From positions 1 through 62,891 of IMG/VR virus record IMGVR_UViG_3300027754_000089: 62,891 nt of DNA, one strand, 5' to 3'. Positions 6,366 through 62,891 of the stretch are shown in pieces; positions within the stretch are counted from its first letter, which is position 1, and every line of letters starts with the position of its first letter. The stretch comes from a virus. The translations under genes and the position numbers were made by a program. Under the pieces are notes generated by a model. It was not told the origin of the DNA and ran no database searches. It saw only the letters and a program-made list of their open reading frames with translations.

Positions 6366-6558
6366 GGGCTTCTTTATTCCAAGCCTTGACTTAGAAAAGA
6401 CGAGGGAACTGGGGCTACGCGCCTCAGTTCGCCATCGCATCAAGTCTCACGCTCGGTTCGGGATCAAGGAAGGGCGGATTGGCGTGTGGTTTTATCGAGA
6501 TTTTCCCGCATCGTATTTGCGAACCGAATCTTCATCTGACGAACCTCATCCAACTTAG
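6325..6558 (+). CDS. Small conserved phage protein, 77 aa
   Basis: The start is inside the primase-helicase gene (ATG at 6325 after GAAGAAG) and the last 95 bp are antisense to the end of the giant virion gene. The sequence around GEGFFIPSLD and GIKEGRIGVWFYR has the feel of a conserved small phage family (a ligand- or DNA-contacting beta protein), which is why I call it real despite the overlaps. Function is unknown. It closes the plus-strand block. Confidence 0.55.
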   Translation: MVIQYPWTLLKKGEGFFIPSLDLEKTRELGLRASVRHRIKSHARFGIKEGRIGVWFYRDFPASYLRTESSSDEPHPT

Positions 6559-9500
6559 AACGCTTATCTTCTCCTGACATGCTGGTTGAGCGTATTGCAT
6601 TCTCGTACGCAGTCAAGTCACGCATGGTGGATGTGTAATAGTCAGACATAGATGCCATCATGTAATCATTGCTACGGGTTTGAACCAAGCGCATGGCCTC
6701 GGCTTTCTCACCTTTGGTAATGAGATCATCCACAGTAGTCTCAAGCTTTTTCAAGTCCGCTAGCTTGTCGTAAACGCTTGTAATAATCCCGCCCGCATCA
6801 TTGGGTTGGAACAGACCGCCAACAACAGGCGTCTCAGACAAACGCTTATACGCTTTCTCTGGTGATTCCCCCGTTGGTACGCCCATGCTGACCGCTTGTG
6901 CAAAAGCCAAACCCATCGTGCCGGTATAACCACGAATCAACTCGTCCAACTTAATTGGAGAAACACCCGCTACTTTGCCAATCAATTTAGATACCTCAGT
7001 TGTATTGGCTCTAAACTGATATTCGGGCATTAGCGCGGCCTCATGGGGCGTAAGAGTATCTCTACCTGTATAGAACGACTTGCCCAATCCTGCTTCAATA
7101 GCTGGACGCAGTGCTTGGGGAATACCGTAAGACGTACCGCCGGGGATGGTCTGCAACAAGATTTGTTCAAACGCTTTCACAGCTTCTTCTCCGCCGTGCT
7201 TGTTCTTCATGGTGTTGTACAACGCCTCGGGCAAAGCCTTAAAGATGTAACCAATCTCAAAAGGAATTGGCAAACGAATAGGTTCGTCTACGCCGGGGAT
7301 ACGAATAAACCAGTTGCCGTACTTTTGTTCTGGCGTGGCATTCTTGTACGCCTCGTCATCTTGCATCATGTTTGCGTAGGCCAGAGTACCCGCCGCAACC
7401 ATCAAACCTCGTGTCAACAATTTCTCTTGAATCTTTAAGCGTTCATTGAACGGAAGCTTTCCTGTCAACGCTTTGTACAACACGTTCATGGATTGAATCT
7501 GCGCGTTAAAGAAAGGAATCATAGCGTTCATCCAATGCACGCTAGGTGATGCTCCGCGCTTGTTAAAGTTCATAGACTCAAGCGACATTAGCGTGGCTTC
7601 CATTTCAGAAAGACCTTGCTTAATGTAGCTGTTGTATTGTGCGCGGCGTGTAGCGGCATCGGCTTCCATGTTAATTGCTTCGGCTTTGGCAATAAGTTGT
7701 GACCAGTTTGATCTACCGGCAGTGATGTCTTTAAGAATCTTGGTCAAGTCTTCGCTTGTACCCGTAAAGATTTGACCGCCTGTAATACCACGCTTTTCAA
7801 GTATTTCTTTTGTTGGACTGCCGATCTCTCTTATTGCTCCCATCACAGGGGTAAAGTCAGCACCGGCCAATAAAGGTGCGGCAACTGAGTCACGGAACAA
7901 CTGCTTTGCCGCGTATAGAGGCGATAGTGTCACGGCTTTACGCAACAACTGTGCGGGAGCGGCAAGCAAACGCATCATGGCGGGCATCTGTGTTGGGATA
8001 CCTTCCATGCCTTTGACCAATATGTCAGCAGGAATGCCTACTTGATCGGTGTCAATAAGCGCATACTTGTCTTGGCCGTTGTCTTTAAACTTAACCACAT
8101 CAGGGCCGGACGTTGATCTGCCCCCGCCAATTTTAGCCAAGCCCATGTTGGCCAATTCAAACACAGCGTTCTTTGTGGCTAAGTTGCGTAAGCCCATGTC
8201 CGCAAGCATGTTGGTGTTTTGCACCGAGCTTGTCATAAAGTCTAGGATAGGTTCATCACCGCCAACCAACTCTTGCAAGTAGGGTTGCTCAGCAATGCTA
8301 CCAATGCGCACGGGTGTTTCGCTACCAATAACCAACTCAGCTACGCCGTTGCGTTGACGATACCAAGGAATGTAATCGTTTTCTTTTAACAAATTAGCGG
8401 CGTGCTCTTTAGATATAGCGCCAGTTTGTACCAAGAAGTTGATAAGGTTTTTGTTATACCCGTTGTATTCATGGCGGGCGGCTTCAAAAATCTTTTTAAG
8501 ACCGGGGGTATTTTCCACGGCTTTAACTGCGGCGGCCAAATCAGCTTCTGTCACTCGGCCATTAAAGTTTAGAGAACCAATGCCTTTATCTTTAACGCGA
8601 ACAGCCGACATGTACAATGTAAATAATCTGTTTACAGCTTCTCCATTGCCAACCAAAGGCGTGGCTTCTTTCAAAGTCTCCACGACTCCTTTTAGGCTAT
8701 CGCCCTCAGTGGCTTCAATCAAGTATTCTTTTTTGCCATCAGCACGGATTTTCTCAACTATCTGAGGTGCACCCCTAGCAACAGACTGTGCTACAAAGTT
8801 CATGCGCTGATCGTACATGCGCAAATAGAACATCATTTGTGAACCACGCAAAGGTTCCATCAGTTTAGATAGCTTTTCAAACCCAGCAAAACGATCCACA
8901 AATTGTGTCTCTAGGCCGAGCCACCCGCCGGAGGCGGCTTGAACGCGTTGCTTGATATTCTTTTGTTTGGCAACAAACTGGTCAGCAATATGCCCCGCCG
9001 CGGCAAGTTCTGCTGAAACATATTTAGGTTTTACAGAAAATAATAATTCTCCTACTTCAGGCAATTCATTTTCTGCAATTTCTCCGTTTTCTTTTTTGGG
9101 TAGTTTATCTATTGTAGCAACAAGCTGTGAACGCACATTTAAAACAGCCGCTTGTAATTTTTCAACTGCGTCAGGTTTGCTTTTTAACAAATCTATTAAA
9201 GATTCAGTAGAATCCCCGTTGCCGTAACTTTCCCAATGTAGATGCGAGTACAGGCTTTCTTTACCTTCTATATCGGAATCCGCGTTGTACAACGCTTCAG
9301 CAAATACATCGTTATCTATATCAAAAGAATATTGTTTTACTATGTTTCGTAAAGCCGGAGTTTTAGCCATGCCTATCGCAGTGCTAAACCATGAGTCAGC
9401 GGCATTTAGTGTTGCGTTAAACAGTTTTGCTTTAGCGTCAAGCGACATACCCATGTTAACTGCGGGTAACTGCATTCCACCAACCGCGGCTACTGCCCCA

Positions 9501-12500
9501 CGTAAAAAAGCACGGCGACTCATACCGCTTGGCGTAGGTTGCATTTCCATTTGTGCCGCACCAAACGCCATGTCAACCAAGCCTTGTGCGTCAAGGCTTT
9601 CAGGGCGCATACCAAACTTTTGCAATAGTTTACGAAAACTATCTGCAATTTTACTTAGCCACTCACCCAACACACCTTTGATTTTGTTAGGGGTAACGCC
9701 CGCCTTAACCGCTTCTTCAACAGCATACGCCAAGATTTCATCAGATCTTTGACTTGCTGGGGTGTTAGCTTCGTCTACCCGTGCTATAGCTTCTTTAGCA
9801 ATGCGAGACTCTACAGAGTTGTCGTTTCTTTTTGCCCAAGATTCAATAGTGCTACTGAGCGTGTCATACTGTTCTTTGCCAAGTATGTTCTTTAACCCAA
9901 CGTGAGCGCCTACTTCGTGCAGTAAAACACCTAACGCTTGTCCTTGATTAATATTTTCTGCAATTAAAAAAACTTTGTTACCCGCAGTATCTACAAAACC
10001 GCGTGTGTTTGAAGGAATGCGGTCTTTATATTGAGGGTTGCTTTGTAATAGGGCATTAACAGAAGAATAGATTTTAATACGGCCTAGATCAGTAAAGTGT
10101 TTTTTTAATTCTTGATTAACTATAGAAACAGTACTGGGATTATCTGTACTACCGCGAGAAAACCCAATGCCTTTTTCAAGGTCTTCGTCAGCTTGGAAAA
10201 CCAACGGCCCCGCCTTGCCTTCATATATTTGTTCGCGTGTCACGTTAAGCACTTCTTCTGTCAACGCCACGGTTTCAGCAAACAAAGACTGCGCCGCTTT
10301 AGCGGGCATATTAAAGAATTGAGAAAGCGCTTCAACAAATCTAGTAAAAATACTCTTACGTGGTTTGTCTGAAGGAATTTCAGTCAACAGTTTTTGAAAT
10401 TCTCTGTTGGCAAACAACTCTGCAACAAATTCTTTGGCGTTGGTTAAACCGTAAATATCAGAAGGCTTCTTAGCGCCCAAGACCATGCTATGATTTCTAA
10501 AGTATGTTCTGCCTTCTGGCGTAGCTAACCAATCTACAACTTTAAGACGCAAAGCATCCATTTGTTTCATCAACTCAGGCTGCAAGTTCATAGCGCGAAC
10601 AGTTGCAGCATGAGTCAACTCATGCAATAAAACTTTATTAACTTGCGCTGAATTACTATTTACATAAACAACGTCAAGAGACGTGGTATAAATCCCCGAC
10701 GCACGCATTTTACCGTCTACAAGATAATCGTCAGTCATGTAAACACGACCGCTACCATCCATTATGGGGGCTTTAGAAAACACTTCAGCCAACGCATTAA
10801 ACAATTGCCTAACCATTGGAGACGTTGTTTTTTGTGCACCATAACGGGCGGCTTCTTCAAAAGTCAAACCATGCAACGGATGATCTTTTGCTATCGTTGT
10901 ATTAAATTTACGCGCGCCTGCGTTTTCAACAGCTTCTTTAGTCATTGACCGCAATTGTTCAGGTGTAGGTGCGGGTTTAGGTGTAGGTTTAAGTGCTGGC
11001 TCTTTTCTTTTTATTGGTGGATAGTTAATTAATGTTTTTACAGCAATAGGTCTGCTAGGTTTAAAAGGCGGCACTCGCATTGGATCAAAATCATTGTTCA
11101 ACGCATCGTCAATTAAATCGTCTTGTAATTGACTTTCAGGTGCTTTCTCTGCATTCTTTAATATCTTGCGTTCTTCTTTGAACGTGGCTTTAGCCGCTTC
11201 TTTGTTGAGCTTAGCATCTCTTACATACGCTTGTTGTTCAATAGTTAATTTTCTAAGCTCTTCTTTTGCATCATTGCGTTTAGCAACAGCTTCTTTTTTG
11301 GCTGTAGCTTGTTTCTTACGGCCTTCTGCGGTTGCAGATGGGTTGTTGGCAATGTAATCAATTTGTTTTTGTGCGGCAGCAAGTTCAACTTTCTTTACGG
11401 CAATCTGTTCAAGAGGCGTAACTTTGCCTTCGGCTTTTTCAAGTTTAAATTGTCTTTCTTGTTCAGCAACATTTGGTTCTTTAATAGCCGTCTGTATACG
11501 CCCTGTTTTAGTTTTGACTACGCCTTCTACTTTGCGAGTGGATAGTCTTAAAGGACGAATGCCTGACTCTTCGTACATTTGTTTCATGGTTGCTTCTAAT
11601 GTCGCACGTTGTGCTTCATCAAACTCTTCCATTGCTTCTTGTTCTTTACGATAAAATTCGTCAGTACTCGTAATTTTCTGTGGTGCGTTGTCTAATGCGT
11701 TGTATATTTTGTTGTACGAATTTTCCACAGCTTTGGCCGCGGCTTCCATTCCTGCTTTATCACCAGCAATACGTGCTTTTTCATACGCATTTTCGTATTT
11801 GCCAATGGCTCCACGCAAACCATTAACCGTATTTTGTACCGAAAAATTTAACGTATCACGAATAACAATGGTTTTATTGCTGCCGGGCGTACGTTCCAAT
11901 ATAGTGGCAATAGTCGGAGTACCGGGTTCTTTAGCGGGCATACCCGCCGCTTCACGCGCAGCCTCCGCTTTGTTCTTAGCAACTGTTTCTTCGTTCTGAG
12001 CTTTTCTAACAGCTTCTTTTGCGGCTTCTAATTTACGTTCGGCCTTATCGCCTTCGTTTATTAACGCCTTGTCAATAGTGTTGCCTGCTTGTTCTTCAAG
12101 AACTTTTTTCTGTGTGGCACGCGCTTGCTCAAGAGCTTTCTCAATACTATTAAAAATCTTTTTGTGCTTTTCAATGTCTTTAATAATAAATTCAAAACCG
12201 GCACGAATTTTTTTAGTATACGGGTGCAACAACAATTCTTTGGACACATAGTCCAAGCCATCCTCTAGTTCTTCTAGCTTTTTCTTAGCCTGAAAATAAG
12301 CTGTCTCAAGATCAGAAACCATGTTTCCAATTCTTTGACGAGCGGACATGCGTTGTTTTCTAATATTATTGGCTATTTTTATAGCTGTTGTAACAGCAGA
12401 ATCTTCAGCGGTAATTTTAGTCAGCGTTGCACGCGCCGCTTCAACAGGGTTTTTCTTGGACTCCTCAAGCTTTTTGTTGTACGCGTCAATCCGTTTTTGT

Positions 12501-15500
12501 TCTTCTTCAATCTTTCTTGCAATCGTGGCCGCACGCTTGGCTTGGAACTCAACTTGTCTGTTGTCTTCTGCAATAGATGCGCGAAGCTTATTAACTTCAC
12601 CGCTATCAAGGAAATTCATAAAGCGTTTGCTTGTTGTTCTGGTCACGCCTTTCTCAGACGCACCGGGGAACAACTCATTTTGCGCACCCTCATCGGCAAC
12701 GGCACCGCGCATGTTTTTAAGATCTTCCTCCAACTGACGCGGCATCTCCAACGCAAGACCGTTCTCTACACGGCGTACTTGCTCAAGCACAAGGTCTTGG
12801 CTTTCAGGCGATAGGTTTTTAAAATACTTTTGTAGCAACTCAAGTTGCGTAGTGTCTTCTTCAGAAGCTCTATTGAGCGCGGCTTCAAACTGCTGTTCTG
12901 TGGAACGTGTTTGTCCTTGGAACTGTGTCTTAAGTATGGGCGTTACTTTTGTAACTTTTGCATTGCCCTGCTCACGCGGCGCAGGGGCTTCAATGCCAGA
13001 TGCTTCATCAACGGCATCGCGCATTTGGCTACGTAAAGCTTTGGCCGCGGCATCATAGTTGTTGAAAACACGTTGCCCTAAAGGAGCACGGGAGATTTCT
13101 TCTTCTGCACCTCTAACAACTTTGTTAGCGCGCATCTGTGCTTGCGTTGTCTTAACCTGTAAAGGCTCAAAAATACCCGCACCGCGCTCAATCAATTCGG
13201 TTAAAACTTGTTCTAAGTTACCAACCGCATCTGTCTTTTCTTTGATAGATAACGGTGGTAGTTTGGCAATAACACGTTTAGCATCTATTTCATTCAACGC
13301 CAAACCAATAACAGTATCTTTTAAACGCTCTGCGGCGTTGCGCAATGTTTGGATTCGTGCATCGGAACGATACACGCTGTCTTCTCGTATGCGTTTAATA
13401 AAATCAGACAACCTATCAAAGGCGGTAAGTTGTGCTTGTGCCAAACGTGTAGCTCTGTTGGCACGGATAGTGTCAGGCGTTTGTTTACCTTCAACACCAG
13501 TTTCTTTAGCCAACAACCCTATCTCAAGTTGTCCAGCCCCTTGTTCTGTATCGGGTTCTCTAAGGTCAGCCAGTTGTTTGCGGATTTCTTGAGCACGCGT
13601 AGAGTTATTTGTAGCAAGCGCATACGACAGTTGTGCACGCAAAGAATCTGCTTGGCTTACACGTTCTGCGCCCATGCCTTCCATAACACGACCAACAACA
13701 AGTTTGTCCGTTTGTCTTTTACTTGTCAATATAGAGTCCACAAGCTTGTCCACTTGTGTAGAAACCTGACCCGTAGGTAAAGTAAAAGGCCCGCGACGCT
13801 CTTGCATACGCATCATTGCGTTGCGTTCTGGCGCTAGCTTGGCATTGCGTTCTGCTTCAGCAGTGGCTTCATCTTCTTGTTTACGTACGTTATCAAGATA
13901 CTCACGCTCTTGATCTTCAATTTCTTGTGGGCCGGGTTCATATGCGCGTGCTTTGAACGCTTCTTTAGATTCAACAAATTGATTTTTAAACTCACGCTTG
14001 GGCCCAAAGTCAAAGCCCAATTGTTCTTGGCCCGCTTCTTTCTTCAGCGCTTGGATCTCTTCACGTAGCTTTTTGGCTTTCTCAGGATCGTAGGCTGGGC
14101 CTGCCATGTCAGCAAACTCAGCTTCTTTCTTGGCCAATCTGTTCTGTATCTCTTGGGGATTTTTATACCCGCCAAGTTCTTTCAGTTGTTCATCAACGTA
14201 TTTCTTTTCATTGCGCAACAAGTTGCCCTGACGTTGCAATTTCTCATGCGCGTCATAGTCTTTTTTGGCTACGGCGTTGGACTCTTGTTCTTGATGTGCC
14301 TCTAAAAGACGTTCTAGTTCCTGCTGTTTTTGAGCAAACTCAACAACTTTCTTTTTGTTTTCGTCTTCAACTTGTTCTGAAGGTTTAACTTCTTCCGGAA
14401 CTTCTACGGGCTCCATACCGGGCAATGTGCCCTGTGCACTCTGGTAATACTCTTGTTGTGTCGGCCCTTGCGGTACTTCTTGAGCCGCCTGTTGTTCTAT
14501 GTTGGCATAGCGCTGTTCTTGTGCTTGCTGTGCTGCGCCCTTAACGCGGCGATACTCGCCCACTTGTTCTGCAAGCTGTTTGCCAATCTCTTTAAGCTGG
14601 GCACGAGCCGCCTTATAGGCGTCAATCTCTTCAAAAGATGCGCCTTTGCCGGGTCTTTTTATGGCTTTGAGATCGCGGAACTGCTTATCCAAAGCCTCGT
14701 AATTGTTAACAAACTCCGTGGCGTACTCAGGCGTTTGTTTGCGTGCTTCTAATTGAGCCGCTTCTTCTGCCTGTACGCGCTGAGCTTCTTCCTCCTGCCC
14801 CATCTGCTCCATGCGAGCTTTACGTTGTGCAATTTGTTTCTCTTGCTCAACTTGTTGTCTAGCACCACCGCGCTCAGACAAACGACCCGCCGCACCCATA
14901 GGCGCCAACAACCCAACTTGATATGCTGTCTGGCCATACTCGCGTAACGCGTCATCACTGGTAAGGGATAACCCTGCCTGTGAACGCTCCAACATTTGTT
15001 GTGCAACTTCTGTGGGAATCTCAGCCAATGCGCCTGTGGCTGTACCTTTTGCAAGAGTAGTAAGTAGCTTTTCTTCTGCCAACTTAGCGGCGTTGGCTCC
15101 TCCGCCCAATAGTGCTTTCTCAGGAATGCCAGTCAACTTACTGACAAGACGCCCGCCCAAAGGAATAAAGTTACCAGCAACATCTAACGCGGCTTGAGGC
15201 ACTGCTGCAAACCCAGCTTTCTCTCTGTTAATTTTTACAGGTTCACCACGCGCAGTTTGTTCTTCTGCTTGGCGTTCAATGTTGCCACCAAATTGAGTCA
15301 ATAAAGAAGGTACTGCGGCTCCGGCTAAACCACCAATAAGCGCACCCGTTGGGCCTGCAATTGAACCAAGGGCGGCACCTGCTCTAGCGCTACCAGCAAG
15401 AGCGGCAATGTTGGGGGCTTGTTCTGCTAATGCTGCGGGGATTTGACTGACTACTTCGCCTGCCGCAGGAAGAATGCCTTTTTCTTTGTATGCCTTGATT

Positions 15501-15808
15501 ACTTTATCAAGACTGGTTTGTTCAGCGTAACGCTCACCAATGTCTTTGCCACGTGAAATACCGGCTTTAGCCGCTTCCTCTGGACTACCGCCTAACAAAG
15601 AAGAAATACCTGTACGTGCTTGAGAGATGAGGGACTCAGCGCCTTTGCTTACTGCGGCACCAAGTCCTTTTTTAGAGTACCCAACTTGTTCATAGAACTC
15701 GGGTAGCGGGATGTCTGGGTAAAACTTTTCGTGAAGTGCGTCTGCTAGTTGCTTGTCGCTTAAGTCCTTGTACTGTGGAAACTTACTACGTACTTCACTG
15801 ATGTTCAT
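6464..15808 (-). CDS. Giant internal virion (large polyvalent) protein, 3114 aa
   Basis: This is very likely an ejected internal virion protein. The N-terminus (ISEVRSKFPQYKDLSDKQLA) is a motif common to large phage internal proteins, followed by glycine/alanine-rich hydrophobic stretches (about 45-200) that may be membrane-active. Residues about 310-1650 are mostly charged coiled coil. Two zinc-peptidase-like motifs follow: HELTH at 1729-1733 with Glu1793 and Glu1796 downstream, and HEVGAH at 1964-1969. A twin-arginine-like segment, MSRRAFLRGAVAAVGG, begins at Met2096. The C-terminal third, around 2700-2870, resembles the LPD38 domain of large polyvalent proteins. It is the last gene of the minus-strand block and its 3' end overlaps the opposing 6325-6558 gene. 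Domain names are from memory of families and have not been searched. Confidence 0.85.
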   Translation of the reverse strand: MNISEVRSKFPQYKDLSDKQLADALHEKFYPDIPLPEFYEQVGYSKKGLGAAVSKGAESLISQARTGISSLLGGSPEEAAKAGISRGKDIGERYAEQTSLDKVIKAYKEKGILPAAGEVVSQIPAALAEQAPNIAALAGSARAGAALGSIAGPTGALIGGLAGAAVPSLLTQFGGNIERQAEEQTARGEPVKINREKAGFAAVPQAALDVAGNFIPLGGRLVSKLTGIPEKALLGGGANAAKLAEEKLLTTLAKGTATGALAEIPTEVAQQMLERSQAGLSLTSDDALREYGQTAYQVGLLAPMGAAGRLSERGGARQQVEQEKQIAQRKARMEQMGQEEEAQRVQAEEAAQLEARKQTPEYATEFVNNYEALDKQFRDLKAIKRPGKGASFEEIDAYKAARAQLKEIGKQLAEQVGEYRRVKGAAQQAQEQRYANIEQQAAQEVPQGPTQQEYYQSAQGTLPGMEPVEVPEEVKPSEQVEDENKKKVVEFAQKQQELERLLEAHQEQESNAVAKKDYDAHEKLQRQGNLLRNEKKYVDEQLKELGGYKNPQEIQNRLAKKEAEFADMAGPAYDPEKAKKLREEIQALKKEAGQEQLGFDFGPKREFKNQFVESKEAFKARAYEPGPQEIEDQEREYLDNVRKQEDEATAEAERNAKLAPERNAMMRMQERRGPFTLPTGQVSTQVDKLVDSILTSKRQTDKLVVGRVMEGMGAERVSQADSLRAQLSYALATNNSTRAQEIRKQLADLREPDTEQGAGQLEIGLLAKETGVEGKQTPDTIRANRATRLAQAQLTAFDRLSDFIKRIREDSVYRSDARIQTLRNAAERLKDTVIGLALNEIDAKRVIAKLPPLSIKEKTDAVGNLEQVLTELIERGAGIFEPLQVKTTQAQMRANKVVRGAEEEISRAPLGQRVFNNYDAAAKALRSQMRDAVDEASGIEAPAPREQGNAKVTKVTPILKTQFQGQTRSTEQQFEAALNRASEEDTTQLELLQKYFKNLSPESQDLVLEQVRRVENGLALEMPRQLEEDLKNMRGAVADEGAQNELFPGASEKGVTRTTSKRFMNFLDSGEVNKLRASIAEDNRQVEFQAKRAATIARKIEEEQKRIDAYNKKLEESKKNPVEAARATLTKITAEDSAVTTAIKIANNIRKQRMSARQRIGNMVSDLETAYFQAKKKLEELEDGLDYVSKELLLHPYTKKIRAGFEFIIKDIEKHKKIFNSIEKALEQARATQKKVLEEQAGNTIDKALINEGDKAERKLEAAKEAVRKAQNEETVAKNKAEAAREAAGMPAKEPGTPTIATILERTPGSNKTIVIRDTLNFSVQNTVNGLRGAIGKYENAYEKARIAGDKAGMEAAAKAVENSYNKIYNALDNAPQKITSTDEFYRKEQEAMEEFDEAQRATLEATMKQMYEESGIRPLRLSTRKVEGVVKTKTGRIQTAIKEPNVAEQERQFKLEKAEGKVTPLEQIAVKKVELAAAQKQIDYIANNPSATAEGRKKQATAKKEAVAKRNDAKEELRKLTIEQQAYVRDAKLNKEAAKATFKEERKILKNAEKAPESQLQDDLIDDALNNDFDPMRVPPFKPSRPIAVKTLINYPPIKRKEPALKPTPKPAPTPEQLRSMTKEAVENAGARKFNTTIAKDHPLHGLTFEEAARYGAQKTTSPMVRQLFNALAEVFSKAPIMDGSGRVYMTDDYLVDGKMRASGIYTTSLDVVYVNSNSAQVNKVLLHELTHAATVRAMNLQPELMKQMDALRLKVVDWLATPEGRTYFRNHSMVLGAKKPSDIYGLTNAKEFVAELFANREFQKLLTEIPSDKPRKSIFTRFVEALSQFFNMPAKAAQSLFAETVALTEEVLNVTREQIYEGKAGPLVFQADEDLEKGIGFSRGSTDNPSTVSIVNQELKKHFTDLGRIKIYSSVNALLQSNPQYKDRIPSNTRGFVDTAGNKVFLIAENINQGQALGVLLHEVGAHVGLKNILGKEQYDTLSSTIESWAKRNDNSVESRIAKEAIARVDEANTPASQRSDEILAYAVEEAVKAGVTPNKIKGVLGEWLSKIADSFRKLLQKFGMRPESLDAQGLVDMAFGAAQMEMQPTPSGMSRRAFLRGAVAAVGGMQLPAVNMGMSLDAKAKLFNATLNAADSWFSTAIGMAKTPALRNIVKQYSFDIDNDVFAEALYNADSDIEGKESLYSHLHWESYGNGDSTESLIDLLKSKPDAVEKLQAAVLNVRSQLVATIDKLPKKENGEIAENELPEVGELLFSVKPKYVSAELAAAGHIADQFVAKQKNIKQRVQAASGGWLGLETQFVDRFAGFEKLSKLMEPLRGSQMMFYLRMYDQRMNFVAQSVARGAPQIVEKIRADGKKEYLIEATEGDSLKGVVETLKEATPLVGNGEAVNRLFTLYMSAVRVKDKGIGSLNFNGRVTEADLAAAVKAVENTPGLKKIFEAARHEYNGYNKNLINFLVQTGAISKEHAANLLKENDYIPWYRQRNGVAELVIGSETPVRIGSIAEQPYLQELVGGDEPILDFMTSSVQNTNMLADMGLRNLATKNAVFELANMGLAKIGGGRSTSGPDVVKFKDNGQDKYALIDTDQVGIPADILVKGMEGIPTQMPAMMRLLAAPAQLLRKAVTLSPLYAAKQLFRDSVAAPLLAGADFTPVMGAIREIGSPTKEILEKRGITGGQIFTGTSEDLTKILKDITAGRSNWSQLIAKAEAINMEADAATRRAQYNSYIKQGLSEMEATLMSLESMNFNKRGASPSVHWMNAMIPFFNAQIQSMNVLYKALTGKLPFNERLKIQEKLLTRGLMVAAGTLAYANMMQDDEAYKNATPEQKYGNWFIRIPGVDEPIRLPIPFEIGYIFKALPEALYNTMKNKHGGEEAVKAFEQILLQTIPGGTSYGIPQALRPAIEAGLGKSFYTGRDTLTPHEAALMPEYQFRANTTEVSKLIGKVAGVSPIKLDELIRGYTGTMGLAFAQAVSMGVPTGESPEKAYKRLSETPVVGGLFQPNDAGGIITSVYDKLADLKKLETTVDDLITKGEKAEAMRLVQTRSNDYMMASMSDYYTSTMRDLTAYENAIRSTSMSGEDKRSKLDEVRQMKIRFANTMRENLDKTTRQSALP

Positions 15809-46777: not shown

Positions 46778-46796
46778 ATGGGGTTGTGTCTAAAGT

Positions 46797-46826
46797 TTGA
46801 CAGAAGGTTTTTTAGAATTTTTATAA
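46797..46826 (+). promoter_or_regulatory. Candidate plus-strand sigma70 promoter
   Basis: A perfect TTGACA (46797-46802) with TTATAA 18 bp downstream (46821-46826). The -10 is imperfect; an alternative TATAAA starts one base further. Direction fits the early operon. Prediction only. Confidence 0.4.
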
Positions 46827-51519: not shown

Positions 51520-51906
51520 ATGGGATATAGATCAGATGTAACAGGCATCATCAAATTCAAGACACACGAAGACAGAGAGAAGTTTGTACTCATGGTGCGA
51601 GCACGCAACGATGACATGTACACGATGTGCTTCAGCAACCAAGACGAAGCTAACAACTGGAACCACGACTACAGACACGAACCCATAATGACATTCCAAT
51701 TCATAGACGTCAAATGGTATTCAGACTTCCCCGATGTTAAAACGCACTACGCTTTGTGTGAGTACGCCATTGAGACATTCAACGCTGAGTGGCTCATTGT
51801 GCAGATAGGTGAAGACGGCGCAACAGAAGAGGAGGGTAGCGATGACCATGAATTAGCAGACTACATTCGAGTAGTACACAACATTGAAACACATTTCGGT
51901 AACTAA
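51520..51906 (+). CDS. Conserved phage early protein, 128 aa
   Basis: AAGGAGAAATCAA precedes the ATG. The MGYRSDV start, central QFIDVKWYSDFPDVKTHY and C-terminal acidic region resemble a small conserved phage family of unknown function. It is coupled by spacing to the gene that follows, which also begins MGYST. Confidence 0.6.
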   Translation: MGYRSDVTGIIKFKTHEDREKFVLMVRARNDDMYTMCFSNQDEANNWNHDYRHEPIMTFQFIDVKWYSDFPDVKTHYALCEYAIETFNAEWLIVQIGEDGATEEEGSDDHELADYIRVVHNIETHFGN

Positions 51907-51921
51907 ACAAGGAGAAATCAA

Positions 51922-52911
51922 ATGGGATATTCAACATCATCCAATCAACTGCAATCAATCGGTTCTTTCGCACGAGCCAAGAGCTACTTCGAGAGTCAAC
52001 CCGCACGCAGAGGTAGCAAGTGGCTAGCGCATCAACGCCCACTAAGGGCAGACAAGGGAGGCGCTAGACTGCATCACTATCGCATAGAGAAACAGATTGA
52101 CGAGAAGTACTATGACATCGTACTCTACAGCACAGTGATGGCTAGGTTCTATGCACCCGAGGCTAGCGGTGCCGAGCGCCGTCTTTATATGGGGGATCAA
52201 ACGCAAACGAGTCAGCAGTTCATGTCCAACGTGCTGAACAAACGCGAAGTCAACTATGCGACACCCGTAGGTAGCGACGACGATCACACCATCATGCCCA
52301 TATATCACAAGCCATGCCAAGACATCAGTGAGGATAAGCCGTTCAGCTTGGAGGTATACGTTGTGGACGACAAGATCGACATCAGTAGGTCAAGGCATAC
52401 GCCACACTATGTGCATCGCGCAAGCAAGGATGACAGGCAACACAAAGCCAATACGCTCAAGCACTTCGATACGTTTGTGTTGATGGCAATGATGCGCTTG
52501 CCTGAGTACGAGAACAATGTGACGATAGACTACTCTAAGGGTAGAGCGTTCGGCGGTGATCCCATCGGACACTCAGACAGATCTTTGATGCAGAGGATGC
52601 TCATGGCAGAGCCATCGCAAGAAGAGATCGAGCAGTTCTTCCAGTTCGGTCAAGCCGTCTTCGATGTATTGGCAAGCAAGCGCGGTGTAAAGCAACAGAA
52701 CTTCACAGTAACACGTAGGTGGTACACCAACCAACAACAATCAAGCACGTACGCTCAGCTTGAGAAGAAGATCACGCCCGAGGAGTTCCGCAAGTCGTTT
52801 CACAATAAGATCGCCGAGGCGCTACAACTCGGGGCTAAGTCAACGAAGATAGAGATTCCACAATTCGTTGCTGTAAGAGATTATCCTAGGACGGCTATCC
52901 GCCTAGGGTAA
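51922..52911 (+). CDS. Unknown 329-aa protein, first gene of the MoxR/VWA neighbourhood
   Basis: AAGGAGAAATCAA precedes the ATG. A compact, charged protein with many Arg/Lys/Asp and scattered His residues, and no transmembrane or catalytic motif recognised. It lies immediately before the promoter of the HExxH/VWA and AAA+ genes; a functional link is suggested only by position. Its end carries a CCTAGG/CCTAGG inverted pair within the coding sequence (about 52885-52908). Confidence 0.6.
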   Translation: MGYSTSSNQLQSIGSFARAKSYFESQPARRGSKWLAHQRPLRADKGGARLHHYRIEKQIDEKYYDIVLYSTVMARFYAPEASGAERRLYMGDQTQTSQQFMSNVLNKREVNYATPVGSDDDHTIMPIYHKPCQDISEDKPFSLEVYVVDDKIDISRSRHTPHYVHRASKDDRQHKANTLKHFDTFVLMAMMRLPEYENNVTIDYSKGRAFGGDPIGHSDRSLMQRMLMAEPSQEEIEQFFQFGQAVFDVLASKRGVKQQNFTVTRRWYTNQQQSSTYAQLEKKITPEEFRKSFHNKIAEALQLGAKSTKIEIPQFVAVRDYPRTAIRLG

Positions 52912-52917
52912 ACGAGG

Positions 52918-52950
52918 GGGTTGTCAATGCTTTGACAACCCTGTTATAAT
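52918..52950 (+). promoter_or_regulatory. Promoter with overlapping inverted repeat before the VWA gene
   Basis: A perfect 10-bp inverted repeat (GGGTTGTCAA and TTGACAACCC, 4-nt loop, 52918-52941) overlaps TTGTCA at 52921-52926, and a perfect TATAAT lies 18 bp downstream (52945-52950). The geometry is that of an operator over the -35 element. The lack of a T-run argues against a terminator. Confidence 0.65.
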
Positions 52951-52985
52951 GAAAGAAAAAAACTTAACACAAAGAGGAGTTTAAT

Positions 52986-54182
52986 ATGACGTTTGAAAAG
53001 ATGACGCTTAATCAGCGTATACAAGCAGTTAACATTGACTGCATGAGGCACCCCAAGTTTGCACTACTCAGTGGTGTGATCTGCATGGGCAAGTCCGAGG
53101 TTAGCGAGAAGACCAGAACCGCATCAACCAATGGACGCGACAAGAAGTATGGCGTGGATTTCATCACGCCTCTCAACCGCAAGCAGTTGCGCTATCTCGT
53201 TCTTCACGAGAACTTTCACGTAGCTCTCAAGCATTGCACACTACACAAGGCAACATCGAGTAAGTATCCCAAGCTTACCAACGTGGCTCACGACTATGTG
53301 GTCAATGCGCTCATCGAGGAGATGGATCCTAACTTCCAGTTCATTGAGCGTCCTACATCTACCTTACTCATTGACCGCAAGTACTTCGGTTGGTCGTTCC
53401 CTCAAGTCTTCAATGATCTGATTGCTCAAGGTCGCAAGGAACCCGAGGATGGTGAGGGCGATGGCGGTGACGATGGACATGACCCCGAGCCCATCGATGC
53501 ACACGAGGACGGCGAGTTCGCACCCGAGGAGATCGAGAAGATCGACAAGCAAGTGGACGATGCGAATCGTCAAGGCGAGATGCTTGCACGCAAGATGGCG
53601 GGCAAAGAGGCGGGCGGTCGTGACATCTTCGGTTATGCCAAGGAACGTATGACCGACTGGCGTACGGCATTGCAAGACTTCATCGCTACGATCTCAGTAG
53701 GTGACGATCAGTCAAGGTTCTGTCCTCCCAACAAGCGCTTGCTCGCAAGCGGGTTCATCATGCCGTCCCACTTCACCGAGTCCATTGGTGAGATCATCAT
53801 CGCGGCTGACACATCGGGCTCCATGTATCCTTACTACAGCACGTTGTTTGGAGAGATCGCTCGCATCTGCACACTCACTAAGCCTGAGAAGGTTCGCATC
53901 ATATGGTGGGACACTGCTGTATGCGGTGAGCAAGTGTTCAAGCAAGGTGACTACGATCAGATCGGTACCGCGCTACGTCCTCAAGGCGGGGGCGGGACTA
54001 CTCCGCACGTTGTAGTTGATTACATCAGAGACAAGAAGATCGACGCCAAGGCAATCGTTTGGTTATCAGACGGCTACCTCGGTTGCGATACACCAGTTAC
54101 TCCCATGCCATCTTTGTGGGGTATCGTAGAGAACGACTCGTTCGTTCCTACGCATGGCAAAGTGTTACACATCAATCTTTAA
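52986..54182 (+). CDS. HExxH metallopeptidase-like / VWA protein (DUF2201-like)
   Basis: The product has 398 residues. Residues about 60-110 contain HENFH (His74, Glu75, His78), the zinc-peptidase-like signature of the DUF2201 N-terminal domain. An acidic, Gly/Asp-rich hinge (about 150-185) leads to a VWA domain with a complete MIDAS start DTSGSM (275-280) and a later Asp in WLSDGY. VWA proteins of this kind act with MoxR-type AAA+ ATPases as chaperones or activators. The partner ATPase is the next gene, and a dedicated promoter precedes it. TCAAAGAGGAG sits upstream of the start. Confidence 0.85.
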   Translation: MTFEKMTLNQRIQAVNIDCMRHPKFALLSGVICMGKSEVSEKTRTASTNGRDKKYGVDFITPLNRKQLRYLVLHENFHVALKHCTLHKATSSKYPKLTNVAHDYVVNALIEEMDPNFQFIERPTSTLLIDRKYFGWSFPQVFNDLIAQGRKEPEDGEGDGGDDGHDPEPIDAHEDGEFAPEEIEKIDKQVDDANRQGEMLARKMAGKEAGGRDIFGYAKERMTDWRTALQDFIATISVGDDQSRFCPPNKRLLASGFIMPSHFTESIGEIIIAADTSGSMYPYYSTLFGEIARICTLTKPEKVRIIWWDTAVCGEQVFKQGDYDQIGTALRPQGGGGTTPHVVVDYIRDKKIDAKAIVWLSDGYLGCDTPVTPMPSLWGIVENDSFVPTHGKVLHINL

Positions 54183-54206
54183 TTCATTAACTCAGGAGAT
54201 ATTCAC

Positions 54207-55331
54207 ATGTCACAATATTTATCATTCACACAAGTTCAGTCCCTCATCGCTAACGTGGGTCACAAGCGCACCATCCTCGTGGAGGGCGAGAACGGCATCG
54301 GCAAGACTGCCCTCTTCCATGCCATCAAGCGTATGCCTCAGTTTGCCAATCACATTGCAGTTGACCCAGTTGATTGCACTCAGTTGTCCGATGGTTCAGT
54401 ATGGATGCCTGACCTTGATCGTGAGAACGGCGTGTCACGCGAGTTACCCAACGAGCGGTTCGGCGTATCGAAGACCAATCAGCTAGGTGTCAATGGTAGC
54501 AAGCCTATCCTCGTGATGCTTGATGAGATTGCCAAGGCTCCACAGTTCATCAAGAACGTGCTCGCTCCAATCATCTACGAGAGACGCGTTGGTGCATACC
54601 ACTTCGTTGAGGGTAGCGTGGTGTTCATGGGTACGAACCTTGCCATCGAGGGTCTAGGCGATTCGATCCAAGCACATCTGCGCAATCGTCTTGTGTTCGT
54701 TAAGATGCGCAAGTCAACGTCAGAGGAGTGGGTCAAGTGGGCAACCGATGCGGGGGTCAATCCTACTGTGATCGCGTTCGTTGCCAACGAGCCTCGTGTT
54801 ATGGAGTCATTCATTGACTACGAGAAGGGCGGTAAGTATGAGGGCAAAACGCTATCGAAAGAGAACGGCATGATCTTCAATCCCAAGTCCATGCAACTCG
54901 CGTATGCTACGCCTCGCTCCTTGGTCGCGGCGGGTGACATCCTTGATACGTGCCTCGGCAATGTCGATGACGATACGCTTGAGGAAGCTTTGGTTGGTGC
55001 AATAGGCGAGGTGACTGCGCGTGCGATGGCATCGTTCGTTCGCTTTGGTCAAGACATCTGTGAGTATTCACGTGTGATCGCTGACCCTGACAAGGCCCCT
55101 CTGTCTGACAATCCTACTGCTCAGTTGATTCAAGTCTTCCAGTTCGTATCTCGTGCATCGAATCGTACCGAGGCTGAGGCAATCGTCAAGTACGTATGGC
55201 GTATGCGTGCAGAGATGCAATCGATCTTCTGCAATACAGTTAGTTCGTCCCAACGTGCGGGGCTTTTCGCAACCATCAGTGAGTTCGGTCGCATGTTGAC
55301 TGCTCACAAAATCTTTTTCACAACCAAGTAA
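54207..55331 (+). CDS. MoxR/CobS-like AAA+ ATPase
   Basis: The product has 374 residues. Walker A GENGIGKT (27-34, Lys33), Walker B LVMLDEIAKA (Asp106, Glu107), sensor-1 Asn144 in GTNLAIEG and an arginine cluster HLRNRLVF (Arg159, Arg161) that could hold the finger. The C-terminal domain is helical. MoxR-type ATPases form hexamers and remodel VWA-bound clients. Order and spacing (24 bp after the VWA gene, 18 bp before the next) indicate an operon. Catalytic residues appear intact. Confidence 0.85.
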   Translation: MSQYLSFTQVQSLIANVGHKRTILVEGENGIGKTALFHAIKRMPQFANHIAVDPVDCTQLSDGSVWMPDLDRENGVSRELPNERFGVSKTNQLGVNGSKPILVMLDEIAKAPQFIKNVLAPIIYERRVGAYHFVEGSVVFMGTNLAIEGLGDSIQAHLRNRLVFVKMRKSTSEEWVKWATDAGVNPTVIAFVANEPRVMESFIDYEKGGKYEGKTLSKENGMIFNPKSMQLAYATPRSLVAAGDILDTCLGNVDDDTLEEALVGAIGEVTARAMASFVRFGQDICEYSRVIADPDKAPLSDNPTAQLIQVFQFVSRASNRTEAEAIVKYVWRMRAEMQSIFCNTVSSSQRAGLFATISEFGRMLTAHKIFFTTK

Positions 55332-55349
55332 TCTAAGGAGATATTCACT

Positions 55350-56234
55350 ATGACTACAACTACACCACGTTTCAATCTCGATACATGCACACTACTCGTT
55401 GAGTTCAACGCATCTGTGTGGACAGCACGCAAGCTCGACAAGACAACCACGACTGAGGTCGTGGCAAGCAAGCACGCGGGGTCTAAGGATGCCGCTCGTG
55501 TCAACAAGCACTTGCTCGCAGGGCGTACAGAACTCGATGTCATTCAACAAGCCGTTGGTCGTGCTCGTCAGTTTGTGTACGACAAGACCTTGCCTTGGTC
55601 TGACTCAGGCTTGCGTCTCTTGCCTACTGTTAACTTTATGCAGTTCACCGAGCGGATGAATGACTTCGATGAGGAGATCAGCGCCTTGGTCAAATCATTC
55701 GTGGCTATTTATCCTACGCTCATCACGGCTCAGGCGATGGCTCTCGGTGATATGTTCAAGAGAGATGACTACCCAACGGCCAACGAGATACTCACCAAGT
55801 TCTCGTTCAGGGTCAACTACATGCCTGTACCTACATCAGGGGACATTCGTGTAGACGTTGGCAACCAAGCGCAGAAAGAACTCAACGATAGGTTGCAAGC
55901 CTTGACTCAGGAGCGCATCGACAATGCGATGAATGACATCAAGACCCGCCTACTCGATCACCTCAAGCGCATGTCCGATAGGCTCACGACTGACTACGTT
56001 GCGGGCGAGGCCAAGCAGAGAAGATTCCACGACACGTTGGTAGATGGTGCCTTGGATCTGTGCGACATGGCCAAGTCCTTGAACGTGACCAATGACGTGG
56101 GGCTTGAGCAAGCACGCAAAGAGTTAGAGCAATTGCTCACCGGTGTAACTCCCGACGAGTTACGTAAGAACGAGGCTATCCGTCAAGATGTCAAGAAGAA
56201 CGTCGACTCTATCCTCAGTAAGTTTGATTTTTAA
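55350..56234 (+). CDS. DUF3150-like protein of the MoxR/VWA module
   Basis: The product has 294 residues, mostly helical, with coiled-coil stretches (about 180-285). I associate this kind of helical protein with the DUF3150 group that often sits beside CobS-like ATPases and CobT/VWA proteins on plasmids and phages; this is from memory and not certain. TAAGGAGATATTCACT precedes the ATG. The third gene of the module in order, it is presumably a client or structural partner. Confidence 0.65.
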   Translation: MTTTTPRFNLDTCTLLVEFNASVWTARKLDKTTTTEVVASKHAGSKDAARVNKHLLAGRTELDVIQQAVGRARQFVYDKTLPWSDSGLRLLPTVNFMQFTERMNDFDEEISALVKSFVAIYPTLITAQAMALGDMFKRDDYPTANEILTKFSFRVNYMPVPTSGDIRVDVGNQAQKELNDRLQALTQERIDNAMNDIKTRLLDHLKRMSDRLTTDYVAGEAKQRRFHDTLVDGALDLCDMAKSLNVTNDVGLEQARKELEQLLTGVTPDELRKNEAIRQDVKKNVDSILSKFDF

Positions 56235-56244
56235 GGAGAAGACA

Positions 56245-56481
56245 ATGCGCGATAAACGGGTCGTGCCTTACGACACAGGTAAGGTAAAGATAGGGGAGCG
56301 GTACGTACCGCCCCCTCCCCCGATGGATGAACAAGCCGAGCAGATCCAAGCGGGTCTGCTTGAGATTCATCCGTGGTATGTCACAACTTTCCGCAACACG
56401 TTGCTATACGTGTTTGCGTGTTTGCTTGCCTTGGCATTATTTTTAATCATATCTTTTATGGAAAGGAACGGTCATGCCTGA
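56245..56481 (+). CDS. Small single-TM protein, 78 aa
   Basis: ATG at 56245 has AAGGAGAAGACA upstream. A basic, proline-rich N-terminus (YVPPPPPMDEQAEQ) is followed by a strong C-terminal membrane helix (about 48-69). It ends overlapping the next gene by 8 bp. Function unknown; possibly a membrane anchor for early complexes. Confidence 0.6.
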   Translation: MRDKRVVPYDTGKVKIGERYVPPPPPMDEQAEQIQAGLLEIHPWYVTTFRNTLLYVFACLLALALFLIISFMERNGHA

Positions 56482-57001
56482 TATTAAGAGTGCTTTGGCC
56501 AAAGCTTTGGATGAATGGTCACGCGAAGAAGAAACACAATTTAAACAACCCGAGGAGAAACAAATGGATCCACGCAGTAACATGCCACAAACTTTTAAAA
56601 TAACCAACAACATCGCACGCAGAACGTTTGAATACGTGCGGGACAACCCTGGCCTCAAAGCCAAAGAAGTGGGGCGACACTTTGGGTCTCTTGGGCTTAA
56701 GCCTCATTCAGCGGTAGCTATGATGTCAGCATCGGTAGCGAATGGCATTATGCGTAGAGACGAGAACTCAAGATACTACACAACCATACCTGAGTACAGG
56801 CCACTAAAGAAACTTAAACCCAAAGACAAACCAAGCGCAGGCATTGCCGCGCTACCAGTCAAACGCGTGGAGAAAAAGGTAGAACGTGTGGAGAGGGTTA
56901 TGCCTATACAACAATCTACGGCAAGCACTATACTAGGTACCCTCAATGTAGTTGAGGCCAAGAAACTTTATCAAGAACTCAAAGTAATATTCGAGGGATA
57001 A
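56474..57001 (+). CDS. Winged-helix-like DNA-binding protein, 175 aa
   Basis: AAGGAACGGTC precedes the ATG. Residues about 50-100 form a helix-turn-helix/winged-helix pattern (TFEYVRDNPGLKAKEVGRHF, then MMSASVANGIMRRDENSRYY with the wing). A basic, Lys/Pro-rich linker and a short helical C-terminus follow. It is probably a transcription regulator or DNA-end binder. Confidence 0.65.
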   Translation: MPDIKSALAKALDEWSREEETQFKQPEEKQMDPRSNMPQTFKITNNIARRTFEYVRDNPGLKAKEVGRHFGSLGLKPHSAVAMMSASVANGIMRRDENSRYYTTIPEYRPLKKLKPKDKPSAGIAALPVKRVEKKVERVERVMPIQQSTASTILGTLNVVEAKKLYQELKVIFEG

Positions 57002-58387: not shown

Positions 58388-58656
58388 ACTTAGACGAAAA
58401 AGAATTAGAAAGACGCATTGCGCAAATGACCGAAGAAGAGCAAGTGCACTTCAAAGCAACGATACATGTCTTGGCATCGTGTTATGGAGAAGAAGCTCAT
58501 AGCGCTGTGTTGATACTCAAGGACGATAGCCCATTGGCGCAAGTGATACATTTCAATTGCAACGACATGGAAGCTACTGGCATTGTGCACTCAGCCTCGC
58601 GGTACTATGATTTTATTAACGTGGTGGATGCCCCGCCCAAGGAGAACTTTAATTGA
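58384..58656 (+). CDS. Hypothetical protein between nuclease and polymerase, 90 aa
   Basis: Acidic, helical at the start, then beta-like (AVLILKDDSPLAQVIHFNC). Overlaps both neighbours by 4 bp, so it is coupled to the polymerase. Function unknown. Confidence 0.6.
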   Translation: MNLDEKELERRIAQMTEEEQVHFKATIHVLASCYGEEAHSAVLILKDDSPLAQVIHFNCNDMEATGIVHSASRYYDFINVVDAPPKENFN

Positions 58657-60635
58657 CAAAACCCTACGACAGAATATTAACAATTGACTTTGAGACGCGT
58701 TGGTCTAAAACAGACTACACGCTCTCTAAGATGACCACAGAGGAGTACATACGAGATGATAGGTTTACCGCGTTCGGAGCTTGTATACATGAGTATGGAA
58801 GCACAGATTCAATTGAATGGTATGGAGGATCAGAACTACCTGAACTCTTTTCAAGTATCGACTGGGGACGAACCGCCGTACTTGCACATAATGCACAGTT
58901 CGATATTGCCATACTCGAATGGGTATATTCCTGTCGACCCGCTTTTATCTTCGACTCGCTATCAATGGCGAGAGCTTTACGAGGCGTGGAGGTTGGCAAT
59001 AGTCTTGCCAAACTTGCGGGAGATTTTGGTCTTCCCCCCAAAGGGCAAGCCATACACAGCACAGATGGTCTGGCCGAGTTGGACGAACACGTGGAACTTG
59101 AACTTGCAGACTATTGCAAACACGACGTATATCTGTGCGAACGAATTTTTGAAAGACTCGTACAGGGGTACCCCACCAAAGAACTTAGACTGATTGACAT
59201 GACGCTAAAGATGTTCACGCGTCCAACGCTAGTGCTTGACCCCCTTAAACTATCCAATGCCATCGAAGAAGAGAGGACATCTCGTGAAGAACTATTACAA
59301 AGACTCGGCGTGGAAGAAGTTGAACTGGCGTCGAATCCAAAGTTTGCTGAACAACTACGAAAACTCGGTGTGGTTCCCCCGACTAAGACGAGTAAAACCA
59401 CAGGGAAAGAAACGCTTGCGTTGGCTAAGAATGACGCCCTTTTTCAGGCGCTCCTTAACGGTCAACGTGAAGACGTTACCCTTCTATGTCAAGCGCGTCT
59501 ACGGGTTAAATCAACAACCGAACGCACAAGGGCGCAGAGGTTCTTGGATATTAGTCAGCGAGGTAGTTTACCGGTTCCGCTCTCGTACTATGGCGCTAAA
59601 AGCGGGCGCTGGTCAGCGTCGAAAGGCTCAGCCATCAACATGCAAAACTTAAAGCGGGGGACAAAGGAACGCCCCTCATTCCTACGCGAAGCAATCATGG
59701 CTCCCGATGGGCATCAGTTGGTTGTTGGGGATCTATCTCAAATAGAACCACGTGTCCTTGCATGGCTTAGTGACTACGAAGATATGCTTAACATCTTTAG
59801 GGCGGGCGGTGACCCGTATGCCGCGTTTGGTGCGCAGATGTTTAACGTACCCGGACTCAGCAAAGACGAACACCCCGAACTTAGGCAGTCAGCAAAGAGT
59901 GCGCTCCTTGGTTGCGGTTACGGACTAGGTTGGGCATCGTTCGCTTCACAACTACTGACAGGATTCCTTGGAGCAAAGCCGGTGCGGTACGAGAAAGCGT
60001 TTGCCAAGACGTTGAGCGTTGATTTAGATTACATGACCAAGTTTTTGGATTGGGATGAGAATGCCCTACGCTTGGAGGAGATCCCGCACACCTGTAGCTC
60101 TAAGGAGCTCTTGATACACGCAGTAGCCTCTAAGAAGATCATCGACATTTACCGCGCCACAGCGTACCCCGTTGTAGCGTTCTGGAGTCTGTGCAACACG
60201 TTGCTAGAAAGATCTTTGTTTAATGGTCAAGAATATAAATATAAATGCTTGACATTTCGCAAAGAAGAAATAGAATTACCAAATGGCATGAAACTTTTAT
60301 ATCCCAATTTGAGGATTGAGAAGGACGATGAGGGTAGGAACCAGTATGTATACGGGTCAGACGCTACCAAGCTTTATGCGGGAAAGATTACGAACAATGT
60401 CACACAAGCGTTAGCGCGCATTGTGATGACGGATGGAATGCTCAGAGTATCCAAAAGATACTTCATAGCAGGTACAGTGCACGACGAACAAATCGTAGTC
60501 GTGCCGGATGCTGAAGTAGAAGAAGCTAAGACTTGGGTCTTGGCGCAAATGACTATGGAGCCAAGCTATATGCAAGGCATACCATTAGACGCAGAGGTTG
60601 GCGCTCACAAGCGCTATGGGTTAGCTAAAAATTAA
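58653..60635 (+). CDS. DNA polymerase, family A, with 3'-5' exonuclease
   Basis: The product has 660 residues, initiated at TTG (58653) inside the previous stop with AAGGAGAACT upstream. DnaQ-like exonuclease motifs: IDFET (Asp12, Glu14), AHNAQFD (Asp84), and YCKHD (Tyr154, Asp158). Polymerase motifs: motif A LVVGDLSQIEPR (Asp360), motif B RQSAKSALLGCGYG (Arg411, Lys415, Tyr423) and motif C VHDE (610-612). There is no 5'-nuclease domain. It is the replicative polymerase of this phage together with the primase-helicase and SSB. Confidence 0.95.
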   Translation: MTKPYDRILTIDFETRWSKTDYTLSKMTTEEYIRDDRFTAFGACIHEYGSTDSIEWYGGSELPELFSSIDWGRTAVLAHNAQFDIAILEWVYSCRPAFIFDSLSMARALRGVEVGNSLAKLAGDFGLPPKGQAIHSTDGLAELDEHVELELADYCKHDVYLCERIFERLVQGYPTKELRLIDMTLKMFTRPTLVLDPLKLSNAIEEERTSREELLQRLGVEEVELASNPKFAEQLRKLGVVPPTKTSKTTGKETLALAKNDALFQALLNGQREDVTLLCQARLRVKSTTERTRAQRFLDISQRGSLPVPLSYYGAKSGRWSASKGSAINMQNLKRGTKERPSFLREAIMAPDGHQLVVGDLSQIEPRVLAWLSDYEDMLNIFRAGGDPYAAFGAQMFNVPGLSKDEHPELRQSAKSALLGCGYGLGWASFASQLLTGFLGAKPVRYEKAFAKTLSVDLDYMTKFLDWDENALRLEEIPHTCSSKELLIHAVASKKIIDIYRATAYPVVAFWSLCNTLLERSLFNGQEYKYKCLTFRKEEIELPNGMKLLYPNLRIEKDDEGRNQYVYGSDATKLYAGKITNNVTQALARIVMTDGMLRVSKRYFIAGTVHDEQIVVVPDAEVEEAKTWVLAQMTMEPSYMQGIPLDAEVGAHKRYGLAKN

Positions 60636-62472: not shown

Positions 62473-62891
62473 TGCAGATCGTAGAAAACAAAGCGCTTGT
62501 TCTACGAACGCGAAACCCCAGTAAGTACGCAATCATTCCTAAACACAAAGTTCTTTCTGAGAATGGTGGTGTGTACGAAGTTGCCGTTTACTGGGGGCTT
62601 GATGAGTCCCGCGTACTTAGAAACCTAGGCGTTAAGAATGTACCGTCCCCCATCACAAGAAGATACACATGGCCGGGCAAGTATTTGCCAATGGCTCACC
62701 AAATAGAAACGTCTGCTTTCCTCACAATGAACCGCCGAGCATTTTGTTTTAACGATCCTGGCACGGGCAAAACATTGTCAGCGCTGTGGGCTGCGGACTA
62801 TTTAATGGAACGCAATGAAGTCAGGCGTGTTCTTGTTCTGTGCCCTTTGTCCATCATGCACAGTGCTTGGATGGGTGACATCAATCGAAGT
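62472..62891 (+). CDS. SNF2-family DNA helicase, N-terminal part (gene continues at window base 1)
   Basis: The start is GTG at 62472, sharing a base with the preceding TAG. The first 85 codons precede the end overlap and encode a beta-rich N-terminal domain followed by the Q-motif region MAHQIETSAFLTMNRRAFCF; the remaining bases repeat window positions 1-165, including Walker A GTGKT at residues 96-100 of the full protein. Joining both pieces gives about 520 residues. Confidence 0.85.
   Translation, partial: MQIVENKALVLRTRNPSKYAIIPKHKVLSENGGVYEVAVYWGLDESRVLRNLGVKNVPSPITRRYTWPGKYLPMAHQIETSAFLTMNRRAFCFNDPGTGKTLSALWAADYLMERNEVRRVLVLCPLSIMHSAWMGDINRS
62727..62891. repeat. Contig-end overlap (right copy)
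   Basis: Bases 62727-62891 are the partner of 1-165, differing at four third-codon positions only. Confidence 0.85.

Follow-up and report, generated by a model that had tools for sequence, protein, structure and literature searches.

The viral genome studied here carries a core of three adjacent genes, encoding a MoxR-type AAA+ ATPase, a VWA protein with an N-terminal HExxH metallopeptidase, and a DUF3150-like protein. The motifs of these proteins are intact, the triad is conserved in phages, plasmids and bacterial contigs, it resides in a neighbourhood of replication and partition genes, and it has its own conserved promoter. The best explanation, to which we would give an even chance, is that the triad constitutes an ATP-driven remodelling or proteolysis machine, whose target would be a protein acting in the replication, recombination or establishment phase of mobile elements.

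Judged by sequence, the AAA/VWA pair is that of gp24 and gp25 of phage N4, and as such was already known. Both belong to the 14 core genes shared by N4-like phages, are transcribed as middle genes, and have no assigned function (PMC4193335, PMC2784036). The present analysis adds a definition of the triad, its spread across types of elements and a conserved dyad promoter, and takes the gene encoded immediately upstream out of the core.

Composition of the module

The analysed stretch, hereafter the window, is a single viral record of 62,891 b that is close to complete. Its ends (1-165 and 62727-62891) overlap over 165 b, 161 of them matching, so the viral genome probably is complete and carries a terminal repeat. 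The earlier note had described four adjacent genes as a self-contained module, and an ORF check found all four intact and in place. These genes and the elements surrounding them are the following:

46787..46802, + strand: second dyad copy, TGTCTAAAGTTTGACA, where the + strand early/replication block begins, just past the late-block boundary
51520..51906, + strand: 'pre' gene, 128 aa; in relatives it keeps its place upstream of P1 (69 of 79 loci, duplicates retained)
51922..52911, + strand: P1 (gene 1), 329 aa, fast-evolving and phage-specific, 5' of the promoter of the machine
52921..52950, + strand: promoter-like element and dyad operator, GGGTTGTCAATGCTTTGACAACCC overlapping the -35, then TATAAT (extended -10, TG)
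52986..54182, + strand: VWA, 398 aa, N-terminal HExxH metallopeptidase (DUF2201_N) and C-terminal VWA/MIDAS (DUF2201); phrog_1314; homologue of N4 gp25
54207..55331, + strand: AAA, 374 aa, AAA+ ATPase of the MoxR/midasin clade; phrog_1297; homologue of N4 gp24
55350..56234, + strand: DUF3150-like partner, 294 aa, all-helical, assigned by homology
56474..57001, + strand: d2 gene, 175 aa, fast-evolving neighbour that keeps its downstream place in relatives

The VWA protein matches the Pfam families DUF2201_N (1.6e-13, 51.4 bits, with a curated cut-off of 23.2) and DUF2201 (6.7e-9, 36.4 bits, cut-off 26.4), and over its full length phrog_1314 (1.7e-60, residues 5-397), while the ATPase matches phrog_1297, also over its full length (8.4e-39, residues 6-352). 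With such scores, these assignments are not due to chance. The family phrog_1314, which occurs in hundreds of phage records, is labelled 'HNH endonuclease' in PHROGs and in many GenBank records. However, Pfam finds DUF2201_N and DUF2201, and no HNH domain, in the VWA protein of the window, and this label looks like a propagated error.

All the motifs on which an active machine would depend are intact, namely HENFH (H74/E75/H78), the MIDAS DTSGSM (D275/S277/S279), Walker A GENGIGKT and Walker B MLDE. Loss of the catalytic residues in homologues, one of the two observations that the earlier note had named as speaking against its reading, did not occur, since these residues are invariant or nearly so in the alignments. 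Every full-length viral VWA relative retains both HExxH and MIDAS, and every full-length viral AAA relative retains Walker A; the deviating cases for HExxH and MIDAS comprise five truncated fragments, MIDAS variants in L004 and L005, and a VWA homologue on a Variovorax plasmid (L114, start uncertain) that lacks HExxH. In the ATPase, residues G30, G32, K33, D106, N144, R161 and R237 are invariant in alignment A5. With roles assigned from position, this set comprises the Walker A and B motifs, the sensor 1 asparagine, the arginine finger and the sensor 2 arginine of the MoxR/midasin clade. Searched against solved structures, the AAA profile retrieves the AAA modules of Midasin best (1.5e-21), far ahead of the Clp proteins (about 1e-7), and this places the protein, on profile similarity, in the MoxR/midasin (helix-2-insert) clade. 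The earlier reading of an active-looking MoxR/VWA-metallopeptidase machine is thus supported at the level of motifs and their conservation. In one relative, Vibrio phage phi 1 (L004:6725-8756), the AAA gene seems to be split into an N-terminal piece (6725-6940) and the remainder (7806-8756), on either side of an annotated HNH endonuclease (7045-7644), an arrangement suggestive of the insertion of a homing element.

The naming of the last gene as DUF3150-like stands by way of its homologues, but not by a match of its own. The window protein does not match the DUF3150 model PF11348, whereas 13 of the 20 members of its alignment do (best 1.3e-6), and it is 28% identical (8e-23) to plasmid proteins annotated as DUF3150. 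When the genomes behind four loci were searched with PF11348, only a single one exceeded the cut-off, which indicates that the model under-detects this branch. The AlphaFold2 model of the protein is poor (pLDDT 50, pTM 0.28) and was set aside as a lead, and no paper on DUF3150 was found in the literature. A protein 70% identical to that of the window is encoded on a contig titled Polymorphobacter (L115), which is probably of viral origin and was placed in a bacterial MAG by binning.

Distribution and neighbourhood of the triad

Scanning IMG/VR with gene 1, the DUF3150-like protein and VWA yielded about 100 loci, of which, after de-duplication, 53 distinct ones contain all four genes. The expectation that the gene order would be conserved in other viruses was borne out, with gene 1 first and the DUF3150-like gene last in all 53; the middle pair varies, being VWA-AAA in 39 and AAA-VWA in 14.

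The VWA/AAA/DUF3150-like triad is also found in the absence of gene 1, on plasmids of Burkholderiales and alphaproteobacteria, on ICE-like contigs and in other phages. All 10 untruncated bacterial contigs whose flanks around the DUF3150-like gene are long enough have both AAA and VWA beside it, and among the bacterial triad contigs are some from Bacteroidota and one from a Bacilli MAG. Plasmid regions inspected on account of DUF3150 matches also contain AAA and VWA, with AAA about 3.6 kb away in one of them (L111). These three genes therefore form the core, with gene 1 outside it.

A plasmid example comes from IncP-7 pCAR1, whose MoxR/VWA genes are conserved in SXT, R391, R478 and Rts1 (PMC2642839). 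Its ORF101-103 form an AAA-DUF3150-VWA set like the three genes of the window, bearing HECSH and DKSGS motifs, and lie close to genes for SSB, RecT and lambda exonuclease. The similarity to the window is weak (hhalign 2e-7 for AAA, 1e-4 for VWA, 0.028 for DUF3150), the Burkholderiales plasmid version being much closer.

In the window, the module lies on the + strand with the genes for DNA polymerase (58653-60635), a PD-(D/E)XK nuclease, a helicase (1-1308) and a primase/helicase (3432-6365), whereas the portal, terminase and virion proteins are encoded on the - strand. It is thus located with middle/replication genes, as gp24/gp25 are in N4, and not with the virion genes, as would be expected of a virion-assembly pair of the two-tailed archaeal virus type. 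The - strand also encodes a 3114-aa protein (6464-15808), whose sole Pfam match is LPD38, near its C-terminus.

A sampled survey of other triads, to which no statistical test was applied, found them next to genes for RecT and primase (L118), toprim and a helicase/methylase (L121), toprim (L113), ParB, Prim-Pol and the conjugative TraM (L123), ParB (L119), DnaB and a helicase (L124), and PRTRC and type IV secretion proteins (L112, L132 and L133). In phages L003-L005, the neighbours are DNA polymerase or helicase genes.

The promoter and gene 1

The only strong promoter-like site of the region is TTGTCA-18-TATAAT with TG, which matches the sigma-70 consensus at 11 of 12 positions and sits in the 74 bp that separate gene 1 from VWA. 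The proposal that the module has its own promoter holds in that a conserved promoter-like site exists, but its position between the first and the second gene defines a three-gene unit rather than one of four genes. Overlapping this site, the dyad TGTC-N8-GACA is exact in 40 of the 43 distinct intergenic sequences between gene 1 and the machine, and present with one mismatch in two more (42/43 in total), the last sequence being truncated. In relatives, the dyad is likewise followed by a -10-like box. Its inner pairs are invariant, and the outer ones vary with partial compensation (GG..CC, GC..GC), a pattern that resembles that of a dyad operator; since its arms lie 5' of the -10, they should not be transcribed.

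The site at 52921-52950 is the only mismatch-free one in the window. The second copy has counterparts of similar sequence at the corresponding place in L006, L087, L088, L102 and L104. The occurrence of the dyad both at the module and at the start of the + strand block suggests that one regulator may serve both. This second dyad comes just past a GC-rich hairpin and T run at the late-block boundary.

Three independent results place the border of the module after gene 1: the position of the promoter, the existence of triads without this gene, and the differing rates of evolution. A gene-1 profile found nothing in plasmid, bacterial and other-phage triads even at E<=5. In comparisons of close pairs, gene 1 has a median dN of 0.155, about ten times that of the ATPase (0.015); the other medians are 0.023 for the DUF3150-like gene, 0.038 for VWA and 0.054 for DNA polymerase. 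Omega is 0.29 for gene 1, 0.096 for VWA, 0.069 for AAA, 0.067 for the DUF3150-like gene and 0.108 for polA, so purifying selection on the three core genes is as strong as on the polymerase. In their rates of change, the neighbours 'pre' (0.229) and d2 (0.203) behave like gene 1. Its fast change would accordingly be a property of the neighbourhood and no special evidence for a client. Gene 1 was rejected as a core component on the grounds of the intervening promoter and its absence from the other triads, and its membership of a self-contained four-gene module is not supported.

The AlphaFold2 model of gene 1, built with 42 relatives, is confident (pLDDT 91.3, pTM 0.74) and finds no credible match in the PDB (best E 0.24, TM about 0.1). 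One weak viral match was obtained, A0A516LIB2 (E 3.6e-4, prob 0.98, with a TM of only 0.28), and no usable sequence relatives were found in named phages. Going by this model, the fold may be new. In this phage clade the gene is always beside the machine, which makes a clade-specific functional link possible, and its product may be a phage-specific client or adaptor.

Possible functions and the relation to N4 gp24/gp25

According to the explanation that we prefer, the VWA, AAA and DUF3150-like proteins would form a single protein-remodelling complex. The ATPase would assemble as a MoxR-type ring, onto which the VWA protein would dock, gripping target proteins through its MIDAS. The HExxH zinc-peptidase would then cut, or in some lineages only bind, what the ring pulls or loosens, and the helical DUF3150-like protein would either bridge the ring and the VWA protein or recognise substrates. 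The complex would act in the early/replication phase, in replication, recombination or the establishment in a new host, and not specifically in virion assembly. What phages, plasmids and integrated elements have in common is DNA replication, recombination and establishment, and not particles, which favours a machine on the replication side. Among the functions that the earlier note had considered (maturing a phage enzyme, remodelling a host complex or countering a defence), the context thus points to an early role on the replication side, and tells against a function limited to virion maturation. Two observations from the homologues count against this explanation: the plasmid VWA protein lacking HExxH, and DUF3150, which was undetected in the N4-like loci examined, so that the third part is not universal. 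The virion genes near the RPP1 homologues, described below, are a third.

An alternative that we regard as unlikely is a chaperone-protease for virion assembly or maturation, in which the ring and the VWA-peptidase would assemble or process a structural protein. Such a function would suit a peptidase, and in Roseobacter phage RPP1 the homologues of gp24/gp25 have virion genes next to them; LIT1 contains a similar cluster (PMC4193335). A role in virion assembly and proteolytic processing was proposed outright by Iyer et al. in 2021 for a pair from jumbo phages (group 2.2), by analogy with an archaeal two-tailed virus (PMC7824862). Like the genes of the window, that pair combines a MoxR AAA+ protein with a vWA fused to an N-terminal metallopeptidase; it is described as a pair, and the part of the article devoted to it mentions no DUF3150 partner. 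However, plasmids and conjugative elements carry the same triad with no virion genes next to it, in the window it lies adjacent to replication genes on the strand opposite the structural block, and N4 gp24/gp25 are transcribed as middle genes (PMC4193335).

A broader version of the replication-side explanation, in our opinion also improbable as a whole, would see the triad as a general establishment/replication machine of phages, conjugative plasmids and integrated elements. In the phage clade of the window, it would be controlled by a dedicated operator that also serves the start of the early block, and P1 would be a phage-specific client or specificity factor with a new fold.

Rather doubtful, in turn, is a role in counter-defence or host takeover, where the machine would extract or cleave a defence or regulatory protein of the host on entry, with P1 (together with 'pre' and d2) providing a fast-changing specificity. 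Phages and conjugative plasmids, both of which carry the machine, must survive entry, the promoter is of an early/middle type, and the omega of P1 (0.29) exceeds that of the machine (0.07-0.10). Against this, P1 lies outside the promoter unit and is absent from plasmids, and the machine is conserved like a polymerase, with no sign of an arms race. The fast evolution of P1 is itself weakened as such a sign, given that its ordinary neighbours 'pre' and d2 are similar and that its omega remains below 1. The MoxR-vWA ternary conflict systems (VMAP, iSTAND; PMC7159879) share with the window a MoxR protein, a vWA protein and a third component, but differ in that third component and in their fused effectors; no VMAP, iSTAND or FtsH third component or effector fusion was found among the Pfam matches of the window proteins, nor was there any meaningful PADLOC match. 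Finally, a metal- or cofactor-insertion machine acting on a metalloenzyme, like CobS/CobT or NorQ/NorD, has the same AAA+/VWA architecture and the NorD annotation of the pCAR1 homologue on its side, but is very improbable, as a non-exhaustive search found no chelatase large subunit or client metalloenzyme beside the examined window, plasmid and bacterial triads.

The replication-side explanation bears directly on gp24 and gp25, core genes of all N4-like phages that have been without a function since the N4 genome was described. The N4 proteins share with those of the window both families, the DUF2201_N plus VWA architecture and the place by the replication genes; however, the window proteins are only 20-27% identical to them, and the window has the additional adjacent DUF3150-like gene. 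A literature search found nothing on N4 with CRISPRi or on N4-like phages with MoxR. That plasmids and integrated elements carry this machine together with a third subunit, next to genes for replication, recombination and partition, makes the question of gp24/gp25 more tractable, and argues against a purely virion-maturation role. The plasmid versions can be deleted without effect on virus production, and DUF3150 can be named as a partner for co-expression. One record filed as a plasmid, the 75-kb pRBH2-3 of A. baumannii (L134), encodes toprim, a DNA-directed RNA polymerase, AAA and VWA in an N4-like arrangement, and may be an N4-like phage or a phage-plasmid.
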